Position numbers and translations under genes: made by a program
Part shown: one piece after another, positions 24,683-34,639 of the stretch
How positions within the stretch are numbered: position 1 is the stretch's first letter
Layout of the letters: each line of letters begins with the position of its first letter
The notes under the pieces: model-generated
What the model was told of the DNA's origin: nothing
Database searches by the model: none
What the model saw: only the letters and a program-made list of their open reading frames with translations
Source of the DNA: Cyanobacteria bacterium MAG CAR3_bin_5
GTDB taxonomy: Bacteria > Cyanobacteriota > Cyanobacteriia > PCC-6307 > Cyanobiaceae
Direction: 5' to 3'
Assembly (NCBI GenBank): GCA_026709085.1
Contig: JAPOTR010000027.1
Span: 1-58,829, forward strand
Length of the DNA stretch: 58,829 bases

Positions 24683-25235
24683 CCCGTCGACGCTTGCGGG
24701 CATAGAATTGAATGGCCAACGCCATGAAAACAACGAGGGCTGCCACCAGCCACGTGGCGAGACCCGTGGGGAACTGGCCTTTGAAAACGGCCAGCATCAC
24801 GATCACCACCAGCAACAGGGTGGGGGCTTCGTTCAGCGCCCGCAGCTTGCCGCTGCTCCAGGCGCAGATCCCTTGCTGCAACTGCCCCATGAGCCGGTAG
24901 CAGAACAGGTGGTAGGCCATCAGCAGGGCCACGAAGGCCAGCTTCACGTGCAACCAGCCCTGGTGCAGCCAACCGGGATTGGTGGCCAACAGACCCACCG
25001 CCATGGCCACCGCCACCACCATGCCGGGGGTGGTGATGATGTTGGCCAGCCGTTTCTCCATCAAGGTGTATTGGGGCTTGAGCACCGCCTGGGCATCCGG
25101 GCTGAGGGCGTCCGCCTCCACGTGGTAGATGAAGAGGCGCACCAGATAGAAAAGCCCGGCAAACCACACCACCACCCCGATGACGTGGAAGGTCTTGAAC
25201 CAGAGATAGGCCTCTGGCGGCAGGTGCAGCGCCAT
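24648..25235 (-). CDS. hemJ: Protoporphyrinogen IX oxidase HemJ
   Basis: A 195-aa integral membrane enzyme that oxidises protoporphyrinogen IX to protoporphyrin IX for haem and chlorophyll. It has four to five membrane helices; the N-terminus AYLWFKTFHVIGVVVWFAGL carries the conserved His of the family, and LVRLFIYHVEA and GWLHVKLAFVALLMAYHLFC follow. Length is typical. The first 33 codons and the upstream region are duplicated, in diverged form, at 28048-28245, on the far side of a restriction-modification-like insertion. Confidence 0.92.
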   Translation of the reverse strand: MALHLPPEAYLWFKTFHVIGVVVWFAGLFYLVRLFIYHVEADALSPDAQAVLKPQYTLMEKRLANIITTPGMVVAVAMAVGLLATNPGWLHQGWLHVKLAFVALLMAYHLFCYRLMGQLQQGICAWSSGKLRALNEAPTLLLVVIVMLAVFKGQFPTGLATWLVAALVVFMALAIQFYARKRRRDAEQQALSQGA

Positions 25236-25320
25236 CGGGTTGGGGGAGCTTCGGGTCAGAGCTTATTACAGCATGGCTTGCTGGGGTGTGGTCCTCAACT
25301 GTCAGGTACTTGTCCCCTCA
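25137..25320. repeat. Duplicated hemJ 5' end and upstream region, intact copy
   Basis: This stretch matches 28048-28245 with scattered substitutions and small indels; long identical blocks include GGAAGGTCTTGAACCAGAGA and GCGCCATCGGGTTGGGGGAG. The two copies bracket about 2.7 kb that contain the HEAT-nuclease and methyltransferase genes. Divergence shows the event is older than the 668-bp duplication. Confidence 0.85.
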
Positions 25321-25427
25321 GGGAGCGTTCCGTGTAGAGATTCGCTCTTTTGCGGCTTGGTCGAGCGGGGCGCCTCATAGACTCAGGCACGGTCTCTGGC
25401 CATAGCCCGTTGGGTTAGATTGTCACC

Positions 25428-26990
25428 ATGCCACCTCTTGCCTTCAAACCTGACTCCAGCTTCTTCGAGAAGATCGCCCTTGGAGCTGTTGGCAGCCGGC
25501 ATGTGGCGCAAGATCTGGAAAGACTGGGTCACCAGATCGTTGAGCTCGAACGTGGCGCCATGGACACGAAGCTCTGGAAGGACGTAAAGCGCAAGCGAGT
25601 CCGCATTCCGGACCTTGTGTGCAAGGTTTGCGGACTTCGCATCGAGAGCCGGGCGAAAACAAAGGCCGAACTGTCCATGTCCCATAGCTTTTCAGCCCAT
25701 GAACGTGCGTGGGACTTTGGCATGGTGGACACTGACTTGGTCGCTTTTCCTGTCTGCATAAAGGATAAAGATCAAGAAAAGCAGTGGTGCATTGGTCGGC
25801 TCAATGACCAAAACTCTTATTGGCACGAGCGTAACCGGATCCAGTGGCAACCCCAAGGCAAGGTCAATTACATACGAGTCGGCCAGTTCAGAGACGTACC
25901 ACATGATGAAGCGTCGACCAAGGGAGTGACCGAAGCGTCGGAAACCAGTATCTCGTGGAAGTCACGGTTTTCCCGTCGCAACGGCTTCGTTAAAGTCGTG
26001 AGCGGTCAAAAGATCACACTCACCAGAGCTGGCGATGGGCATCGTCACACCCAGACAATTCCCCCAGAAATAAAAATAGTAGTAGACTATGGCGACCAAG
26101 TTGCGCTCAATCAGATTATCGCGTCGAGAGTCAGACCAGAAACTGATAATCACTTGCGTTGCTCCCAGGAGTTGACAGACTTTCAACTTTTGCAGCTTCT
26201 GTCTTCCCGCGAGCGGACTCAGCGTTTTACTGGGGTGAAGCTGGCAAGACTCCGGCTTAGGCGTAGCGACTCTCTAGCCAATACTATTGCTAGTCTTGAA
26301 AGAGATCAGGAAGAAGACATGTACATTCGGCTGGAAGCTGCGGCATACCTTGTTGCAATCTGTGATATGGGAGCACAAGATCTCTTTATGCCGTACTTGA
26401 TGAATTGTGACGAGCAGATTCAGCTTGAAGCTGTCATTTCGCTGGGAGAAGCCGGTACCCAGGAGTGTGTGAGCCTATTGAGCACCATCTTGAACGACGC
26501 TGAACGCCCTTACTTTGCACGTAGTGCTGCGGCTTGGTCATTAAGTCGCATCAATGACTCTCAATCGTGTCAGTGCCTTGTGCAGGCGTTTGGGGATATC
26601 AATCCAAACCTCCGTGAAGAGGCTCTTGAAGGTATTGTCAGGCTGCATTCAGACGCAGTTCCCTGGCTTCTCTCCGGGTTACAGGAAGAGAATCCTGCCA
26701 TCGCAGCCGGCTGTGCCGAAGCCCTGCGTCAGCACGGGGCGCTACCAGCCGAGGCCATCGGTACGTTGACTGAACAGCTTACCGAGGAAAACCCTTCCAA
26801 ATGGGCCGTTTGGCTGGCCGGTCACTTGCCCAGAGAATGTCTCGCTGGGGCAGTAGCGGATCTACAGGAAACGGCGCCAGAACTTCACTACGCGATTACT
26901 GTATTGTGGTCGTTCGCCGAAAGCTGGATAGCGCGGCACTGGGAGTTGCAACCGGGCGCAAACTTCCCTCCTATGGGCAATGCCCCATGA
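25428..26990 (+). CDS. HEAT-repeat protein with an N-terminal PD-(D/E)xK-like nuclease, putative restriction enzyme
   Basis: A 520-aa protein. Residues 60-77 read IPDLVCKVCGLRIESRAK: a PD at 61-62, a CxxC pair (C65, C68) and E73...K77, a plausible variant PD-(D/E)xK nuclease core; the E near 39-41 could be the helix acid. Residues about 290-500 contain HEAT-type helical repeats (RLEAAAYLVAICDMGAQDLF, LEAVISLGEAGTQECVSLL, ARSAAAWSLSRINDSQSC). HEAT repeats are rare in restriction enzymes. The stop overlaps the ATG of a DNA methyltransferase (ATGA), so both are made from one message. The best interpretation is the restriction half of a restriction-modification pair; a regulatory role is the alternative. 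Codon and base composition are more AT-rich than in neighbours. Confidence 0.7.
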   Translation: MPPLAFKPDSSFFEKIALGAVGSRHVAQDLERLGHQIVELERGAMDTKLWKDVKRKRVRIPDLVCKVCGLRIESRAKTKAELSMSHSFSAHERAWDFGMVDTDLVAFPVCIKDKDQEKQWCIGRLNDQNSYWHERNRIQWQPQGKVNYIRVGQFRDVPHDEASTKGVTEASETSISWKSRFSRRNGFVKVVSGQKITLTRAGDGHRHTQTIPPEIKIVVDYGDQVALNQIIASRVRPETDNHLRCSQELTDFQLLQLLSSRERTQRFTGVKLARLRLRRSDSLANTIASLERDQEEDMYIRLEAAAYLVAICDMGAQDLFMPYLMNCDEQIQLEAVISLGEAGTQECVSLLSTILNDAERPYFARSAAAWSLSRINDSQSCQCLVQAFGDINPNLREEALEGIVRLHSDAVPWLLSGLQEENPAIAAGCAEALRQHGALPAEAIGTLTEQLTEENPSKWAVWLAGHLPRECLAGAVADLQETAPELHYAITVLWSFAESWIARHWELQPGANFPPMGNAP

Positions 26991-27997
26991 ATTTTGACTT
27001 CCTCCAGGACAAGCAGGTGTACCGGACGCCCTGCGGCCTTCAGTTGTGCGGTGACAGCTTGGAGTTGCTGGCGCACCTGCCGGACCAGTCCGTGGATTTG
27101 ATCATGACCAGCCCTCCCTTTGCACTGCTGCGACAGAAGGCATACGGCAACAAAGGGCAGGATCAGTATGTTGAATGGCTAGGAAGGTTTGGAGAAGCTG
27201 CATATCGTGTGCTGAAGGATAGCGGCAGCTTCGTTCTGGACCTGGGCGGGGCCTACAAGCGCGGCAAGCCGGTACGCTCGCTCTACAACTATCACGTACT
27301 TTTAGACTTTTGCGACCGTCTCGGCTACGAATTGGCAGAAGAATTTTTCTGGTTCAATCCGTCGAAGTTGCCGTCGCCAATCGAATGGGTCAACAAGCGC
27401 AAGATTCGGGCCAAGGATGCCGTAAATACTATCTGGTGGTTTTCCCGATCAACTGAGCCGAAAGCGGACGTTACGAAAGTGTTGGTACCGTACTCGAAGC
27501 GCATGAAGACATTGCTTGACAACCCCGACAAATTCTACCAACCGAAGGAAAGACCTTCAGGGCACGACATCGCCAGGGCCTTCGCCAGAGACAACGGCGG
27601 TGCGATTCCCTCGAACCTGTTGCAAATTCCCAATACGGAAAGCAATTCAAGCTATCTGCGACTGTGCAACATGCTGGGACGAAGCAGCCATCCCGCACGG
27701 TTCCCCAGGGCACTACCACAGTTCTTCATAAAATTTCTTACCAACCCGGAAGATCTGGTGGTGGACATTTTCTCCGGGTCTAACACCACCGGTCAGGCAG
27801 CCGAGGAACTGGGCCGCCATTGGCTCAGCATGGACATCAGTCGCGAGTACGCTGCTCTCTCGGCTTTACGCTTCATGGATGCTTGGAGCGATGCGGAGGT
27901 TCATCAAACCATCACACGGCTTGACGCTGGTGAAGCCGTTGATCTATGTCTCGGCCTAGTGTTTCAGGCACCCCTGTGGTCAGGCTCAACTAGGTAA
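26987..27997 (+). CDS. DNA methyltransferase, beta-class, N4-cytosine type
   Basis: A 336-aa methyltransferase. The catalytic TSPPF (41-45) comes before the AdoMet-binding FSGSNTT (262-268, with VVDIFSG just before), the beta-class order. TSPP motifs are typical of N4-cytosine methylases, though adenine N6 cannot be excluded. CGDSLELLAHLPDQSVDLIM is the usual N-terminal block. Its ATG overlaps the stop of the HEAT-repeat protein (ATGA), giving translational coupling. The recognition sequence is unknown. The C-terminal residues after 300 are poorly conserved in appearance. Confidence 0.88.
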   Translation: MNFDFLQDKQVYRTPCGLQLCGDSLELLAHLPDQSVDLIMTSPPFALLRQKAYGNKGQDQYVEWLGRFGEAAYRVLKDSGSFVLDLGGAYKRGKPVRSLYNYHVLLDFCDRLGYELAEEFFWFNPSKLPSPIEWVNKRKIRAKDAVNTIWWFSRSTEPKADVTKVLVPYSKRMKTLLDNPDKFYQPKERPSGHDIARAFARDNGGAIPSNLLQIPNTESNSSYLRLCNMLGRSSHPARFPRALPQFFIKFLTNPEDLVVDIFSGSNTTGQAAEELGRHWLSMDISREYAALSALRFMDAWSDAEVHQTITRLDAGEAVDLCLGLVFQAPLWSGSTR

Positions 27998-28047
27998 CTG
28001 GCTCATCATGGTCCAGTGAGTCAATCTGCGGCAACGGCAGCCAGGGG

Positions 28048-28245
28048 GCGCACCAGATAGAAGATCCCCCGCCCAGCAAACCACCCCACCCCGATGGTGT
28101 GGAAGGTCTTGAACCAGAGATAGGCCTCTGGCAGCAGGTGCAGCGCCATCGGGTTGGGGGAGCTTCGGGGTCAGAGCTTATTACAGCATAGCTTGCTGGG
28201 GTGTGGTCCTTAACTGTAGGTCAACTGTAGGCGCTTGTCCTCTCA
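28048..28245. repeat. Duplicated hemJ 5' end, degenerate copy
   Basis: Diverged second copy of 25137-25320. On the minus strand it still encodes MALHLLPEAYLWFKTFHTIG before losing the hemJ frame, so it is a hemJ N-terminal pseudogene fragment (28048 to about 28149) plus the upstream region. It ends in sequence without a gene. It marks the right edge of the inserted nuclease-methyltransferase segment. Confidence 0.85.
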
Positions 28246-28584
28246 CAGCCAGTAAGTCTCAAAGCCGTCTCAAGCAACTGTTCATGGGAGGTTCCGCAAG
28301 GAGTGCAAGGAGTTAGTGAGGGTCCTTGGCCATCCAGGGTTCAGGTTCTATGGGGAAAACCAACCCCGCCTGAAGTGGGCTACTGCTTTGAGATCCTATG
28401 AGACTAGCCCCAAAAGCAAGTATTTGGTCAAGAGATTCGATTCTATAGTGCTATTGTATTTAGGTCTTGGAGTGGAGTTCGGTAACCACGCCCTTATCCC
28501 GTGGCCCTGTGGGCTGTTTCTAGCCTAGGTTAGGTGCGTCTAGCTTCGGCTAGGCATGTTGTCTATGGGAGTCCCCCATCCATC
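28246..28584. other. 339-bp region without a recognised gene
   Basis: A forward frame of 70 codons (28316-28528) has no recognisable motif and no ribosome-binding site. I see no repeats or RNA genes here. Confidence 0.35.
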
Positions 28585-28869
28585 ATGAAAACCGATCACC
28601 AGATGATTCTTCGACTGTTGAGGCAAATCCGGGATTGTAGTGACTTGCCAAAGTCATCAAGGGCAATTTGGCCAGAAACATCACCTAAGACTTGTGAAAG
28701 TCAAGGACGGAAGATTCTGCGTTGCCTGCAGCTCATGCTTAGCCAACAGTTGATTGAAGTTTATCAAGACTCACCCCTCTTGAGCATAGGATGTGCTCTT
28801 GAGCCTGATGAATATATGATTGAGGGCATTACTGACTTTGGTTATAAACTCTTGGAGAATTCAAGTTAA
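28585..28869 (+). CDS. Small DUF2513-like protein
   Basis: A 94-aa protein from ATG 28585: MKTDHQMILRLLRQIRDCSD, then PKSSRAIWPETSPKTCESQG, a helix KILRCLQLMLSQQLIEV, and an ending GITDFGYKLLE. The layout (M-K-x-D start, two helices, 'LIE', then a G-x-T-x-x-G-x-x-L end) resembles DUF2513, a winged-helix-like family common in phages and islands; the resemblance is by eye only. A longer frame starts at 28534, but the first 17 codons look unrelated. It stands alone between the methyltransferase insertion and the ankyrin loci. Confidence 0.5.
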   Translation: MKTDHQMILRLLRQIRDCSDLPKSSRAIWPETSPKTCESQGRKILRCLQLMLSQQLIEVYQDSPLLSIGCALEPDEYMIEGITDFGYKLLENSS

Positions 28870-29363
28870 TTTTCTCAGCAAGATCTAAGGGGGGACTGGG
28901 AAGCAGAGGTTGCCCATCCATAGAAGGAGCATGCCCATGCTACTTAATCGCCCCCGGTTGCTATCAAGCTCAATGAGAGCGAGAGAAAGAGGGAGCAACT
29001 GCTTAGCATGGCCTGCTCCCTCTCGCCACCACACGGCATGTGGCGTCGTGCGTAAATCGTTCTTGCCTGCACTGAAGGTGCGTCCCACTTAGTGATTGCC
29101 AAGCGACGTGGCGTGAGCAATAATGCCAGAAGCTGATGCTGAACAAGGGTTTCAAAGTTTGGCCCCATCGTATGCAAGCCCCACCTAAAGATCCCTGAGA
29201 ACTACAGATCAGCATCAGATCAGCATCCAATACCTTATTCAAAAGTGGGTGTGAGAGGACCATCTCATGGCAGCCGCAGTACGTGCTGCGCTCTCATTTC
29301 AAAAGCCCTCTCGCTTGCAGCAAGCTCAGTGGAGTCAATCCATTCTTGCCCCGTGTGTTGGGA
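28870..29363. other. 494-bp non-coding region with a stem-loop
   Basis: No gene is recognisable. At 28988-29023 there is a perfect 10-bp inverted repeat (AGAGGGAGCA and TGCTCCCTCT with a 16-nt loop) of unknown meaning. Several overlapping frames of 60-86 codons have no conserved features. Confidence 0.4.
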
Positions 29364-30079
29364 TCAGCGCCCGTCAGCATCCCGGATGGCCTGCGCCACT
29401 CCTGGAACCCCCATATTCTCCTGAGTAGCAACGTAAAGGGGTGTTAATCCGCGTTTGTTCCGTGCATTGATGTCAGTGCCCGGAGCATCCAACAGAACCT
29501 GCACCACTGCTGGGGCCATGCTCCATCGCGCAGCCGCGTGGAGGGGCGTCTCTTCATAGTTGTCCCGTGCATTGGGATCAGCGTCGTCAGCATCCAGCAG
29601 AGCCTGCACCACTTCTGGGGCCATACTCCATTGCGCAGCCCAGTGGAGGGGCGTGTGTCCCAATTGATCCTCCCGTGCGTTGGAATCAGCACCAGCATCC
29701 ACAAGTGCTTTCACCACTTCTGGGGTTTTGCTAAGCGCTGCTGCCCAGTGGAGGGGCGTCAATCCCTTCTTGTCCCGTGCTTTGAGATTAGCACGGGCAT
29801 CAAGAAGTGCTTTCACCACTTCTAGTGACCTACACCTCAGAGCTGGAGAAAGCTGCGTGTCTCCAACTCTTGCTATTGGTGGTGGTTTTGCTGGGCTTCT
29901 ATCTGCCACCGCCCAGTGGAGGGGTGTTGCTCCATCCTTGTCCTGTGCATTGGGATCAGCGCCATCATCGAGAAGGGCCTGCACCGCTGCTGGCATCTTT
30001 CTCGCCGCAGCCCAGTGGAGGGGGGCATGCCGTCTTGGTCTGTGACATCTTTGGGATCGTGGGCTTGGTCGCTTGTCAT
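29364..30079 (-). pseudogene. Ankyrin-repeat protein gene, frameshifted in a G6 run
   Basis: ATG 30079 is preceded by a strong ribosome-binding site (AAGAGAGGA) and starts MTSDQAHDPKDVTDQDGMPP. The ankyrin consensus continues one frame over: HWAAARKMPAAVQALLDDGA, then NAQDKDGATPLHWAV. The break falls in a run of six G/C (forward 30020-30025). About six ankyrin repeats follow to the stop at 29364, some with extra inserted residues. Ankyrin proteins mediate protein binding and in symbionts are often secreted to the host; no signal peptide is seen here. The G run could be a phase-variable switch, a fixed mutation, or a sequencing error. Confidence 0.7.
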
Positions 30080-30308
30080 TGTTGAAAATCCTCTCTTGCT
30101 TGAGATGAGATTACTTCTCAAGGGTGGCGGACTTAAAACAAGTAGTCAAGTCTGGGAAACCGAACTTCAGGGGACATCGGAAAATCACCATTTTCTCGAC
30201 TGAAAAAGCCTGCTGGCCCATGCCTGACCGATTCCTACTCACTCGTCTCTGTAAGGGGACTTCCATTCAACGTCGCAATACCTTGTTCAAGCGTAGATGG
30301 GAGGATGG
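30080..30308. other. Region between the two ankyrin loci
   Basis: No gene. It contains a 6-bp hairpin GAAAAT-CACC-ATTTTC and next to it the second copy of the 22-bp repeat (30200-30221; see 19595). A forward frame of 99 codons crosses it but is mostly antisense to ankyrin repeats. Confidence 0.4.
30200..30221. repeat. 22-bp sequence repeated exactly at 19595-19616
   Basis: Second copy of the element described at 19595. Here it follows a small hairpin (GAAAAT/ATTTTC), which could be the end of a degenerate mobile element. Confidence 0.6.
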
Positions 30309-30698
30309 TTATTGCATAGCCGCCTCAATGACATGTTCTACGTTCTCGTGTGCAACATCAAGAGCGGTAAAGCCATACTTGTCTTCAGCACTCAGGTTAG
30401 CGCCAGAATTGATGAGGACCTGAGCAACTTCTGCATGACCCAGCCCAGCCGCAAAGTGCAGTGGGGTAAAGCCATCCTTGTCTGTGGCATGAAGGTTAGC
30501 GCCAGAATTGATGAGATACTGCACTGTTACTGAATCTCCCTCCAAGGCGGCAAAGTGTAGTCAGGTCATGCCGTCTTCGTCTGCGGCATCAAAATTAGAG
30601 ACAGTCGTTCTATTTCCAGGTTCTTCATCATCTGTGCCATGCAGCGGAGCCTGAGTCACAACCTCTCCACACTCGTTTTCAATCATATGGACAATGCC
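30309..30698 (-). pseudogene. Former 3' end of the large ankyrin gene, cut off by two nonsense codons
   Basis: In the same frame as the 678-aa ankyrin gene, translation past its TAG (30699-30701) gives GIVHMIENECGEVVTQAPLH, an acidic hinge, a TGA within GMT*LHFAAL, then two more ankyrin repeats (LINSGANLHATDKDGFTPL, AQVLINSGANLSAEDKYG) and a stop at 30309. The first nonsense replaces the Trp found in the parallel hinge (GKQWSIVHM), a TGG-to-TAG change; the second replaces an Arg, CGA to TGA. The ancestral protein had about 808 residues. Confidence 0.75.
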
Positions 30699-32735
30699 CT
30701 ACTGTTTCTTTATTTGTGCAACATCAAGAGGGGTCATGCCATCCTTGTCTTTGGCATCAAGGCTAGCGCCAGCATTGATAAGGACCTGAGTAACTTCTGC
30801 ATGGCCCTTATGAGCCGCAACGTGCAGTGGGGTCCAGCCACGCTTCTCGTTGGCATTGAGGTTAGCGCCAGCATTGATAAGGACCTGAGTAACTTCTGCA
30901 TGGCCCTCATGAGCCGTAAAGTGCAGTGGGGTCAAGCCACCCTTGTCTGTGGCATGAAGGTTGGCACCAGCATTGATAAGGACCTGAGTAACTTCTGCAT
31001 GGCCCTTATAAGCCGCAACGTGCAGTGGGGTCCAGCCACGCTTCTCGTTGGCATTGAGGTTAGCGCCAGCATTGATAAGGACCTGAGTAACTTCTGCATG
31101 GCCCTCATGAGCCGCAACGTGCAGTGGGGTCCAACCACCCTTGTCTGTGGCATGAAGGTTGGCGCCAGCATTGATAAGGACCTGAGCAACTTCTGCATGG
31201 CCCGCAGCCGTAAAGTGCAGTGGGGTCAAGCCATCCTTGTCTGTGGCATGAAGGTTGGCGCCAGAATTGATGAGATACTGCACTGTTACTGAATCTCCCT
31301 TAAAGGCGGCATGGTGTAGTCGGGTCCTGCCGTTCTCGTCGGTGGCATCCAGATTGGAGACGGCCGTTCTATTTCCAGGTTCTCCTTGGTCGTCTGTACT
31401 GTGTGGCGGAGCCTGAGTCATAACCTCTCCACACTCGTTTTCAATCATATGGACAATGCTCCACTGTTTTCCTGCTCGCGCAATATGCAGAGGGGTCATG
31501 CCAGAGGAGTCTCTGGCATTGGGATCAGCACCGCTCCTGGCCAGAATCTTTGCCACGTCCAGATGTCCAGCGCTGGCTGCCATATGTAACGGAGTGGCGC
31601 CGACTGACGTCCGAACGTTGAGATCAGCACCGGCATCGGCAAGAACCTTGACGACTTCCCCATGTCCTTGCGCAACTGCCAGGCTCAGCGGAGTTTGTCC
31701 CCCTTTCTCCGGGGCGTTGATGTTGGCGCCAGCCTCGATGAGCGCTTTCACCACGTCCGGATCGCCTCGCTTTGCTGCCTCGTGCAGTGGCGTTCTGCCC
31801 TGGTGATCCACAGGGTTGGGATAGGCGCCAGCCTTGATGAGGGTTTGGGCGATCTCCCCATGTCCCTCCGTGGCTGCCACGTCCAGGGGAGTATTGCCCA
31901 CCTTGTCCGCCAGGTTCAGATCCGCGCCGGCCTTGATGAGGGCTTTGGCAATGTCCGGGTAGCCTTTGTAGAGAGCCTCGTGCAGTGGCGTTTTGCCCCC
32001 TTGATCCACGGGATTGGCATGGGCGCCAGCCTTGATGAGGGCCTTGACGATGTCCCCATGTCCTTCCGTGGCCGCCATGTCCAGCGGCGTATTGCCGCCC
32101 TTGTCCTTGCCGTTCAGATCAGCCCCGGCGCTGATGAGCGCTTTGGTCATTTCCATATCTCCTTTCGTCACCGCTGCGTGCAACGGCGTCATGCTGTTTT
32201 GATCTTTGACATTAACGTCAAATCCCATGTTAATCAGCGCCATGATGATCGTCAGATCTTCTTTTGTAACGGCTGAGTGTAAGGGAGTCATGTTGTCTTT
32301 ATCCGTGATCGCAAGCTTCGCGCCCGCATCCATGAGAGCTTTGGCGGTTTCTCCATGCTCCAGAAACACCGCAATGTAAAGCGGAGTTGTGCCGTCTTTA
32401 TTTGTGGCGTTCAGGTCGGCGCCAGCCTTGACAAGCAGCCGGGCCATCTCCGGACGGCCTTCCTTGGCCGCTACGCACAACGGGGTCATGCCCTCCTTGT
32501 TTGTGGCGTTCGGGTTGACGCCAGCCTTGATGAGCAGTTGCGCCAAGCCTGGAGATCCATCCCTGGCCGCCCTGTGCAGGAATGATGATGGACTCAACAC
32601 CTTCCAGAGAAACGCCAGAAGGAAGCAGCCGATGAACACCCAGAACGGTCCCCCCATGACCGTCCACACCAGCGCCAGAATCCCTGCGGCGACGGACACC
32701 GTGGTCACAGACATGATGTGCCTGGATCTGGGCAT
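30699..32735 (-). CDS. Membrane-anchored ankyrin-repeat protein (about 19 repeats)
   Basis: A 678-aa protein with one or two membrane segments near residues 9-45 (VTTVSVAAGILALVWTVMGG, FWVFIGCFLLAFLW) and then about 19 ankyrin repeats of 33 residues, pattern G-x-TPLH-AA-GH--V---LI-AGA-. A hinge rich in acidic residues (ENECGEVMTQAPPHSTDD) separates the first 12 from the last set. The last five repeats are nearly identical in DNA, alternating in 198-bp pairs, so they expanded recently. ATG 32714 is an alternative start. Such proteins bind other proteins; in symbionts they may act on the host, but membrane anchoring suggests a periplasmic or cytoplasmic display. It now ends early; see the 3' remnant. 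Confidence 0.82.
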   Translation of the reverse strand: MPRSRHIMSVTTVSVAAGILALVWTVMGGPFWVFIGCFLLAFLWKVLSPSSFLHRAARDGSPGLAQLLIKAGVNPNATNKEGMTPLCVAAKEGRPEMARLLVKAGADLNATNKDGTTPLYIAVFLEHGETAKALMDAGAKLAITDKDNMTPLHSAVTKEDLTIIMALINMGFDVNVKDQNSMTPLHAAVTKGDMEMTKALISAGADLNGKDKGGNTPLDMAATEGHGDIVKALIKAGAHANPVDQGGKTPLHEALYKGYPDIAKALIKAGADLNLADKVGNTPLDVAATEGHGEIAQTLIKAGAYPNPVDHQGRTPLHEAAKRGDPDVVKALIEAGANINAPEKGGQTPLSLAVAQGHGEVVKVLADAGADLNVRTSVGATPLHMAASAGHLDVAKILARSGADPNARDSSGMTPLHIARAGKQWSIVHMIENECGEVMTQAPPHSTDDQGEPGNRTAVSNLDATDENGRTRLHHAAFKGDSVTVQYLINSGANLHATDKDGLTPLHFTAAGHAEVAQVLINAGANLHATDKGGWTPLHVAAHEGHAEVTQVLINAGANLNANEKRGWTPLHVAAYKGHAEVTQVLINAGANLHATDKGGLTPLHFTAHEGHAEVTQVLINAGANLNANEKRGWTPLHVAAHKGHAEVTQVLINAGASLDAKDKDGMTPLDVAQIKKQ

Positions 32736-33031
32736 CAGTCAGGTGAGCAATGAATGGTTGTGACTTTACCACCGCTTCCTTGAGCAACCAAGACGCCTCT
32801 ACCACACCTGCCCCCAGGGCTACAGGCAGGCTCACCCCCGTTGCCCTGTCCTGCTTCAAGGCAGTAAGCCACAAATCCACCCTGTGCTGTTCAGGCTTTC
32901 CGGTTGCAGAGCGGGTGCAGGCTGCCCTGTGTGGCCCTGCACCCAAACCGGAGGCCGGTGTACCGGGCAACCGGATACAGGGCGCTTCTACGGCCCCGGC
33001 CATGCCGAGGCGGCAGGCGTCTTCGAGCGGG

Positions 33032-33298
33032 TCAGTGGGGCGCTTTGCGCAGCATCTCCATGATCTTCAAGGGGAGGCCCTTCACTTCGTCACGGAGGTG
33101 GTCCACCTTTTCATTGAGGACTTTGTTGTCTGCCCGATGCTCGGCGCGCAACTCCTTCACGTCTTCCCGCAGGTGGTCAATCCGCTTGTTTTGCTGGTTC
33201 CACAGGAAGACCAGGACGGTGACGCCCACACCGGCCCAGGCGGCCAGGACGCCAACTACCGCAGCCACGATCATCAGCGTTTGAGAAACAGCCGGCAT
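33032..33298 (-). CDS. Small membrane-anchored coiled-coil protein
   Basis: An 88-aa protein from ATG 33298: MPAVSQTLMIVAAVVGVLAA and further hydrophobic residues form one helix (about 5-33), then NQQNKRIDHLREDVKELRAE continues as a heptad coiled coil (KVDHLRDEVKGLPLKIMEML). It resembles the island protein at 4447-4902 in build but not in sequence. A frame extension to 33340 adds 14 unconvincing residues. The 296 bp between it and the ankyrin gene contain no recognisable gene. Function unknown. Confidence 0.65.
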   Translation of the reverse strand: MPAVSQTLMIVAAVVGVLAAWAGVGVTVLVFLWNQQNKRIDHLREDVKELRAEHRADNKVLNEKVDHLRDEVKGLPLKIMEMLRKAPH

Positions 33299-33479
33299 CG
33301 GGCGGGCCGGCGGACGGGAACAGCCTATCAACGGGAACAACGGCCACCGCTCCCTTCCCGTGCGTGCTTCCAGGCCTGCCCCGGCAGCCAGGGGGGCGCA
33401 ACCCTATGGGACAGCCCGGCCAACCACACACCTCAACGACGGGGGAGGTCTTGAACCGGAGAGCGGAGGATACTGTGGT

Positions 33480-34081
33480 TTACGGCGATGCCTCTGTAAT
33501 CAAAAACTCGGAGATACGGCTTGCAAAGGTTTCCGCATCCCGCTTGAGACTCTCAATCAGAGCGTTTGCAATTCCTATCGGACTACTGTCTGTGTGTTTT
33601 GCCCGGCGACCGACTATCTTGTTTAAGCTGGTGTAAATTGCGGATTCGCTGAGATCCAGGAGATTGCAAAGGAACTGATCCGGCTTGACAGCGTTTATCC
33701 CCACCGACATGAGCGCTTCAGCAGGGAAGTGACGGGTATTCCGGGTAACAATCAGTTCCGCTTTGGCGGCCATAGCCGCTGCCACAACATGGCGGTCACT
33801 CGGATCACAACCAACCCTCTCGGCCAACTCTGCAGGTGGGTTCACCACGGCGCCGGGAAAGACATCCTCCATGGCAGCGCGGAGCTTTCTTGCACAGTGC
33901 TCAGTAATCCGCTGGTCTTGCAACAGATGCCCAAGCGCGTCGTCCAGGATTTTGGGAGACCAATGCACCCGATAAAGGCCGTGGTGTGCTGCTTCCAGCA
34001 GTACATCCCTCATTCGCAAGGATAGAGTACGCAACTGTCCAGTACAACAGGAAAAACCGCAGGTTCCAGCCAAAGGCTCAC
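33480..34081 (-). pseudogene. PIN domain toxin (VapC-like, PIN_3), frameshifted near the N-terminus
   Basis: The gene begins at GTG 34079-34081, overlapping the antitoxin stop (GTGA), and reads VSLWLEPAVFPVVLDSCVLY before meeting TGA. One frame over, MRDVLLEAAHHGLYRVHWSP continues the PIN fold, so a single-base indel lies around 34010-34025. The rest of the domain is intact: DPSDRHVVAAAM, AELIVTRNTRHFP. The nucleophile-side Asp of VVLD is in the cut-off part, so the 190-codon remainder would lack a catalytic acid. The antitoxin is still intact, an orphan in practice. Confidence 0.75.
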
Positions 34082-34536
34082 GCCGTGCTCTCCTCGATCT
34101 CCTGACTCAAGGCACAGAGCCGGTCCAGTGCTTCACAGCGCTGCCGATACTGCTGCTCCTTCAACTGGAGCACGTCACCCAGCCGCAGCCGACGGTGGCT
34201 GCCCACCATTTCGCAGGGAATGGTTTCCTGGTCCAGGAGGCGGTTCAGGTAGGCGCGGGAGACGTTGAGGATCTGGGCGGCCTGTTGCGTGGTGAGCACT
34301 GCATGATGGGGGATCAACGTCACGGCCTCACCATGCTTCAGATGCTCCAGCAGGGTGCGCATCAGCCCGGAAAGAGGCTCAGGAACGCTATGCACCTCGT
34401 TACGGGGACCTGGACCCACAAGCCGGGGACCCTCCAGGGAATTGTCTGCCGGGAACAAGGCCGCAAGCTGTTCCAGTTGATCCTGTGGAATGGAGCCCGG
34501 TCTGACGGTTGGGGGACAAGGAAGGGTCGAATCCAT
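34078..34536 (-). CDS. Excisionase-family (HTH_17) antitoxin of the PIN pair
   Basis: A 152-aa protein with a central MerR/excisionase-type helix-turn-helix, VLTTQQAAQILNVSRAYLNR, followed by DQETIPCEMVGSHRRLRLGD. Such proteins repress their own operon and neutralise the PIN toxin encoded directly downstream; the overlap GTGA supports coupling. The N-terminal 70 residues are Pro/Leu-rich and unconserved in appearance. The frame is intact although the toxin is broken. Confidence 0.82.
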   Translation of the reverse strand: MDSTLPCPPTVRPGSIPQDQLEQLAALFPADNSLEGPRLVGPGPRNEVHSVPEPLSGLMRTLLEHLKHGEAVTLIPHHAVLTTQQAAQILNVSRAYLNRLLDQETIPCEMVGSHRRLRLGDVLQLKEQQYRQRCEALDRLCALSQEIEESTA

Positions 34537-34639
34537 CAGTCGTGCCTCTATTTAGGGGCGCTGTATCAAGGTTAGTACCCGTTCAACTTCCCTGGCGCAC
34601 CGAATCTTGAACAGGAACAATAGAGACAGTGGCACAACG

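Follow-up and report, generated by a model that had tools for sequence, protein, structure and literature searches.

A HEAT-repeat protein encoded with M.PvuII-type methylases in three bacterial phyla: a candidate restriction endonuclease

What is the role of a large HEAT-repeat protein whose gene overlaps that of a DNA methylase in a cyanobacterial genome? The window analyzed here, i.e., the whole stretch of 58,829 nucleotides, corresponds to contig G000:C11, and the close relatives of its genome (G000) include Synechococcus sp. SB0668_bin_13. An ORF of the forward strand (25428..26990) encodes this 520-aa protein, hereafter HP, a putative restriction endonuclease whose homologues have the same neighbour. 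We consider it reasonably probable that HP and the methylase form a mobile Type II-like restriction-modification cassette, in which HP would be the endonuclease that cuts unmethylated CAGCTG or an overlapping site.

The HP-methylase pair and its distribution

The HP gene is followed on the same strand by a gene (26987..27997) encoding a 336-aa M.PvuII-type N4-cytosine methyltransferase, recognized by its similarity to M.PvuII and with CAGCTG as its predicted target. The longest ORF of the methylase begins at 26801, and homology sets its start at 26987, within an ATGA (26987..26990, forward strand) shared by the HP stop codon and the methylase start codon. Both ORFs and the ATGA coupling described in an earlier sequence-only reading of this DNA were thus recovered. 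The overlap was also found in Bryobacterales (L010), Gemmatimonadota (L011 and L012), and Acidobacteriota (L047), and was absent at loci L078, L101, and L103.

That reading had taken the downstream gene for a beta-class N4-cytosine-type methylase, and this assignment was confirmed. The protein matched N6_N4_Mtase in Pfam (E = 1.8e-39) and MTase_II PDLC03323 in PADLOC (E = 2.6e-149), its best PDB match was M.PvuII (1boo; E = 1.1e-125, residues 9-320), with 57% identity over the whole length, and motif IV (TSPPF, residues 41-45) precedes motif I (DIFSGS, near 260), which is the beta order. M.PvuII produces N4-methylcytosine in CAGCTG, and at this level of identity the same mark is expected from the window methylase, the predicted target being the inner cytosine. 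Its dN/dS was 0.05-0.13 in pairs at intermediate divergence (window-L010, window-L011, and L010-L011).

Searches across genomes recovered HP at 16 loci in Cyanobacteria, Acidobacteriota, and Gemmatimonadota and in two viral contigs, with HP identity down to 28%, and an M.PvuII-type methylase was located directly downstream in each of them. The gene pair is real and conserved. Methylases regularly found without HP, which the first reading had held to speak against its proposal, do exist, for M.PvuII-type methylases in general occur in this way and the majority stand beside R.PvuII; the converse, HP without an M.PvuII-type methylase, was never seen among the 16 loci.

The genome scan gave nine loci, seven of which are complete and come from other groups (a Bryobacterales genome, two of Palauibacter, three further Gemmatimonadetes/Gemmatimonadota, and one under the label Gammaproteobacteria), with 71-79% identity to the window for HP and 80-87% for the downstream methylase. 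The Gammaproteobacteria label (L013, VYDD01000087.1) is probably a naming error for a mislabelled bin, since the phylum-based search of that genome returned the Gemmatimonadota set. Profile searches added Gemmatimonadota G478 and G479, Acidobacteriota G778, G805, and G847 (about 40-50% identity), and one more Gemmatimonadota genome, G1078 (about 41-64% identity). G000 was the sole positive in samples of 386 and 367 Cyanobacteria, and within the genus HP was found only in G000, G005, and G007 and as a remnant in G003. This rare and patchy distribution indicates horizontal transfer of the HP family. Several of the named source genomes probably belong to marine-sponge symbionts, and the cyanobacterium of the window is likewise a probable sponge associate. 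Plasmid and phage collections queried with HP or L101 gave no homologue with the N-terminal domain. In G478 (L050 1667-3220), a MobA/VirD2-like relaxase gene is located just 3' of the HP-methylase pair, which suggests a mobilisable element.

In the window, the cassette is held in a variable region (25273..34607) delimited by comparison with empty sites. In G009, G003, and G001, the neighbouring hemJ-like gene (UPF0093) runs straight into the sequence found at about 34608, and the region, being absent from these genomes, is therefore an insert. The direct repeats of ~165 bp that flank the cassette copy the 5' end of this gene: the left one comprises the hemJ-like 5' end and upstream sequence (25136..25302), and the right one is about 90-96% identical in blocks (28047..28217), with the same arrangement in G005. 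A third, partial copy of the hemJ-like 5' end was found at 33395-33462, suggesting repeated insertion at this site. A different insert, with a PLD-like/SNF2-related gene, occupies the hemJ-like site in G004. Ankyrin-repeat genes (29364-32735, reverse strand), one with 14 or more repeats, are located in the same 9.3-kb insert as the cassette.

Association of HP with CAGCTG methylation

Distant HP homologues were found in two viral contigs, L101 (IMG/VR) by means of a degenerate DNA pattern for PDLxCxxCG...E.K and L103 by means of a stricter pattern for ESRAK; their overall identity to HP is 28%, and that of the N-terminal domain 47-49%. In both contigs, HP and an M.PvuII-type methylase are followed by a convergent and apparently intact R.PvuII homologue, and thus HP is not needed there as the sole cutter. 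L103 is probably part of an integrative element, because two of its genes look like large serine recombinases. A profile built from seven R.PvuII relatives, which detected L101/L103 as a positive control at E < 1e-68, found no R.PvuII-like gene in the 17 genomes with the HP system. In these genomes, HP thus remains the sole cutter candidate that accompanies the methylase.

In a tree of 23 methylases, those accompanied by HP alone formed one clade (96/88), those of L101/L103 grouped with the R.PvuII-bearing ones, and a single clade of all HP-bearing methylases was rejected (p-AU 0.0014). Because the HP-paired methylases fall in two clades, HP is tied to site specificity and not just to one lineage. 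Either HP joined CAGCTG methylases at least two times, or an ancestral HP-methylase-R.PvuII locus later lost one cutter; both histories tie HP to CAGCTG methylation specificity. Since L101/L103 also carry R.PvuII, HP recurs as a partner of CAGCTG-type methylases and is not simply a replacement cutter.

These loci also bear on another explanation, in which HP, rather than being the main restriction enzyme, acts as an accessory nuclease linked to CAGCTG methylation (a second cutter or a DNA-processing enzyme, active beside R.PvuII where the latter is present) and was kept in the window lineage after loss of R.PvuII. The presence of HP together with M.PvuII and an apparently intact R.PvuII in L101 and L103, and with two methylase clades, is consistent with such a role. 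However, 14 of the 16 HP loci are devoid of R.PvuII and HP is strongly conserved in them, so HP works without R.PvuII, and we regard this explanation as unlikely. More tentatively, HP may represent a new HEAT-bearing nuclease family dedicated to CAGCTG m4C methylases, which in some mobile elements would be a second cutter beside R.PvuII with a shared methyl mark. If this is true, a design with two endonucleases would restrict escape through the loss or inhibition of one of them, and the L101/L103 loci offer a direct route to why one system carries two different cutters per mark.

Site counts were compared with maximal-order Markov expectations on genome stretches (455 kb for G000). CAGCTG was seen 4 times in G000 for 119 expected, i.e., it was avoided about 30-fold and was the second most avoided of 64 palindromes; ratios were 0.78-1.04 in four other genomes of the family. 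Acidobacteriota gave seen/expected counts of 1/56 (G805), 1/32 (G778), and 0/39 (G847), compared to 18/44 for order mates without HP. However, genus mates without the pair avoid CAGCTG just as strongly (G004, 4/65; G009, 1/30), the HP-bearing G428 does not (39/42), and the ratios were alike in Gemmatimonadota with HP (0.38-0.77) and without HP (0.57). Since G004 and G009 avoid the site and G428 does not, CAGCTG avoidance is not diagnostic for HP and was rejected as proof of its activity; it is suggestive of past restriction at CAGCTG within the genus. In G000 (stretches L110-L129 and the window), CGATCG, GTGCAC, and ACGCGT were about as strongly avoided as CAGCTG, a hint that the genus has several further restriction systems.

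Domains of HP and the candidate active site

The large HEAT-repeat domain seen in the first reading was retrieved by Pfam (HEAT_2, E = 1.2e-18, best stretch residues 323-402), and HEAT_2 also matched L047, L048, and L101, and weakly L103. On the forward strand, this HEAT half (residues 246-514; 26163..26969) is preceded by a candidate nuclease domain at the N-terminus (residues 1-112; 25428..25763) and by a middle domain (residues 113-245; 25764..26162). Neither a recognisable match for the first 284 residues nor a nuclease family at a meaningful E-value for HP was found in Pfam, PHROGs, and PADLOC. The N-terminal domain is the slowest part of HP, with a dN/dS of 0.05-0.06 in the same three pairs at intermediate divergence; there the middle domain gave 0.16-0.21 and the HEAT half 0.09-0.17, and values of up to 0.28 were also obtained for the middle domain. 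The middle domain, the fastest-changing part, is only 27-29% identical to Acidobacteriota homologues, versus 61% for the N-terminal domain.

An IPD...ESRAK stretch with D62 and E73 had been noticed near the N-terminus of HP, and it proved to be invariant in an alignment of nine N-termini with identities down to 47%, which is far more than chance would give. The candidate active-site motif, I60-P-D62-L-x-C-x2-C-G-x-R-x-E73-S-R-A-K77 (25605..25658, forward strand), includes a CxxC turn, and its P61, D62, L63, C65, C68, G69, R71, E73, S74, R75, A76, and K77 are invariant, together with E39, E41, W50, K54, K56, R57, and R59 upstream and S85, R93, W95, G98, D103, A106, and F107 downstream. The invariant residues thus cluster in one block.

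The group with which this block can be compared is that of PD-(D/E)XK nucleases with an Mrr/resolvase-like core. As in these enzymes, a PD is followed in HP by an E 11 residues later; R75 occupies the usual lysine position (E+2) and K77 is two residues further, giving ESRAK instead of ExK. HP also differs from them by a CxxCG turn between D and E and by the absence of a match to any of their family profiles. AlphaFold2 predictions from shallow alignments, for the full-length protein (9 sequences) and residues 1-125 (8 sequences), reached mean pLDDT values of 43.5 and 42.4. In these low-confidence models, a helix is followed by strands at 37-40, 62-65, and 71-74, and the succession of elements (helix, strand, PD strand, E strand, helix, strand) is compatible with a PD-(D/E)XK core. 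Thus, the earlier proposal of a PD-(D/E)xK nuclease retains a candidate PD-x10-E site, formed by D62/E73 where HP is under the strongest constraint, and a compatible strand order, but it is tempered by the ESRAK sequence and by a fold predicted at a pLDDT of about 43.

Profile comparison of HP with R.PvuII gave nothing (probability 0.1%). An RNA polymerase beta' zinc finger, retrieved for the N-terminus by a PDB profile search, was rejected as the matches were at chance level (E 0.06-1), and the underlying resemblance, KRVR..VC.RCG..RAK, was taken as a coincidence. A Vsr-like repair role was also set aside because the mark is m4C.

Four genomes inform on the decay of the locus. In G003, the methylase is intact and HP is cut to its last ~52 residues; in G1078, HP is found in two overlapping frames with an intact methylase; in G847, HP is frameshifted and the methylase is split by a resolvase and OrfB/TnpB element (L049 2417-4398); and G005 contains, at the end of a contig, a second copy of HP that is truncated. 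HP is broken at every decayed locus, and no intact HP with a broken methylase was observed among the loci found. Such a pattern is expected if HP is a toxic cutter and the methylase protects against it; it comes from few loci, in which draft frameshifts may be assembly errors.

All homologues have an acidic HEAT half (19 K+R and 38 D+E in residues 246-520 of the window protein), which argues against a general DNA-binding solenoid and weakens the earlier idea of a HEAT solenoid that senses DNA. This acidity, the usual binding of proteins by HEAT repeats, and the lack of any nuclease profile match would suit a non-nuclease scaffold or a methylase regulator, acting as an allosteric partner or an expression controller. 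However, constraint is concentrated in the PD-x10-ESRAK motif rather than in the HEAT half, M.PvuII and many relatives exist without HP, and the loss of HP precedes or accompanies that of the methylase, as would be the case for a toxic partner; such a role thus appears quite improbable. Finally, a solitary epigenetic or anti-restriction methylase with HP as an unrelated passenger is barely credible, for although phage contigs also contain M.PvuII-type methylases, in one case (L055) with no R.PvuII nearby, the adjacency extends across three phyla with HP identity down to 28%, and the ATGA overlap is conserved in several of them.

In the favoured restriction-modification cassette, the methylase would add an N4-methyl group to the inner cytosine of CAGCTG, by analogy with M.PvuII, and HP would be the restriction endonuclease. 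Its N-terminal domain may form a divergent PD-(D/E)XK-like active site from D62, E73, and R75/K77 and would cut CAGCTG or an overlapping site when the mark is absent, while the middle and HEAT domains could contribute specificity, dimerisation, or contact with a partner protein. The sequence-only reading had proposed an undescribed restriction-modification design; the conserved pair, the N-terminus of no known family, and the decay pattern support it, while its nuclease fold depends on low-confidence predictions. A literature search, with most subscription journals and REBASE outside its coverage, returned no description of a HEAT-repeat restriction enzyme. If HP is a nuclease, it would provide a new endonuclease family and a new architecture for Type II systems, in a restriction cassette common to several phyla.

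Comparison with known systems

Restriction systems inserted with long target duplications have been described (PMC3031569). The window cassette resembles them by its ~165-bp direct repeats and by the empty sites of its relatives. It differs in being nested with other inserts, so that the original event is not clean.

Another point of comparison is a 275-aa protein encoded by a Novacetimonas hansenii plasmid (WP_192266627.1), which contains PDLRCPRCGLLFEVKKR then SHS, with the same spacing as HP and a canonical ExK, and whose plasmid also carries an M.PvuII-like methylase. Unlike HP, it has no HEAT match in Pfam, and this statistically weak lead (tblastn E = 2) was for that reason not counted as evidence of homology. 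In plasmids L069 (NZ_CP118613.1) and L098 (NZ_CP062148.1), more distant M.PvuII-like methylases have as neighbours an AAA ATPase and a protein of ~410-421 aa, in which a nuclease-like motif, RPDL...VEVK, was read for L098; this gene set is possibly another restriction design.

PvuII is among the best studied restriction systems, and its type of methylase occurs, in the window and in other phyla, alongside a large protein that lies outside all family libraries. The window methylase belongs to the same family as that of the PvuII system of Proteus vulgaris (pPvu1), to which it is 57% identical over its whole length. In the window cassette, R.PvuII is not adjacent, HP has no profile similarity to it, and no controller-like ORF (C-protein) of at least 60 aa was found beside HP and the methylase. 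Since R.PvuII is absent, the window pair is not a PvuII system proper. The gene layouts also differ, as the PvuII R and M genes are divergent, whereas the HP and methylase genes are on the same strand and overlap.
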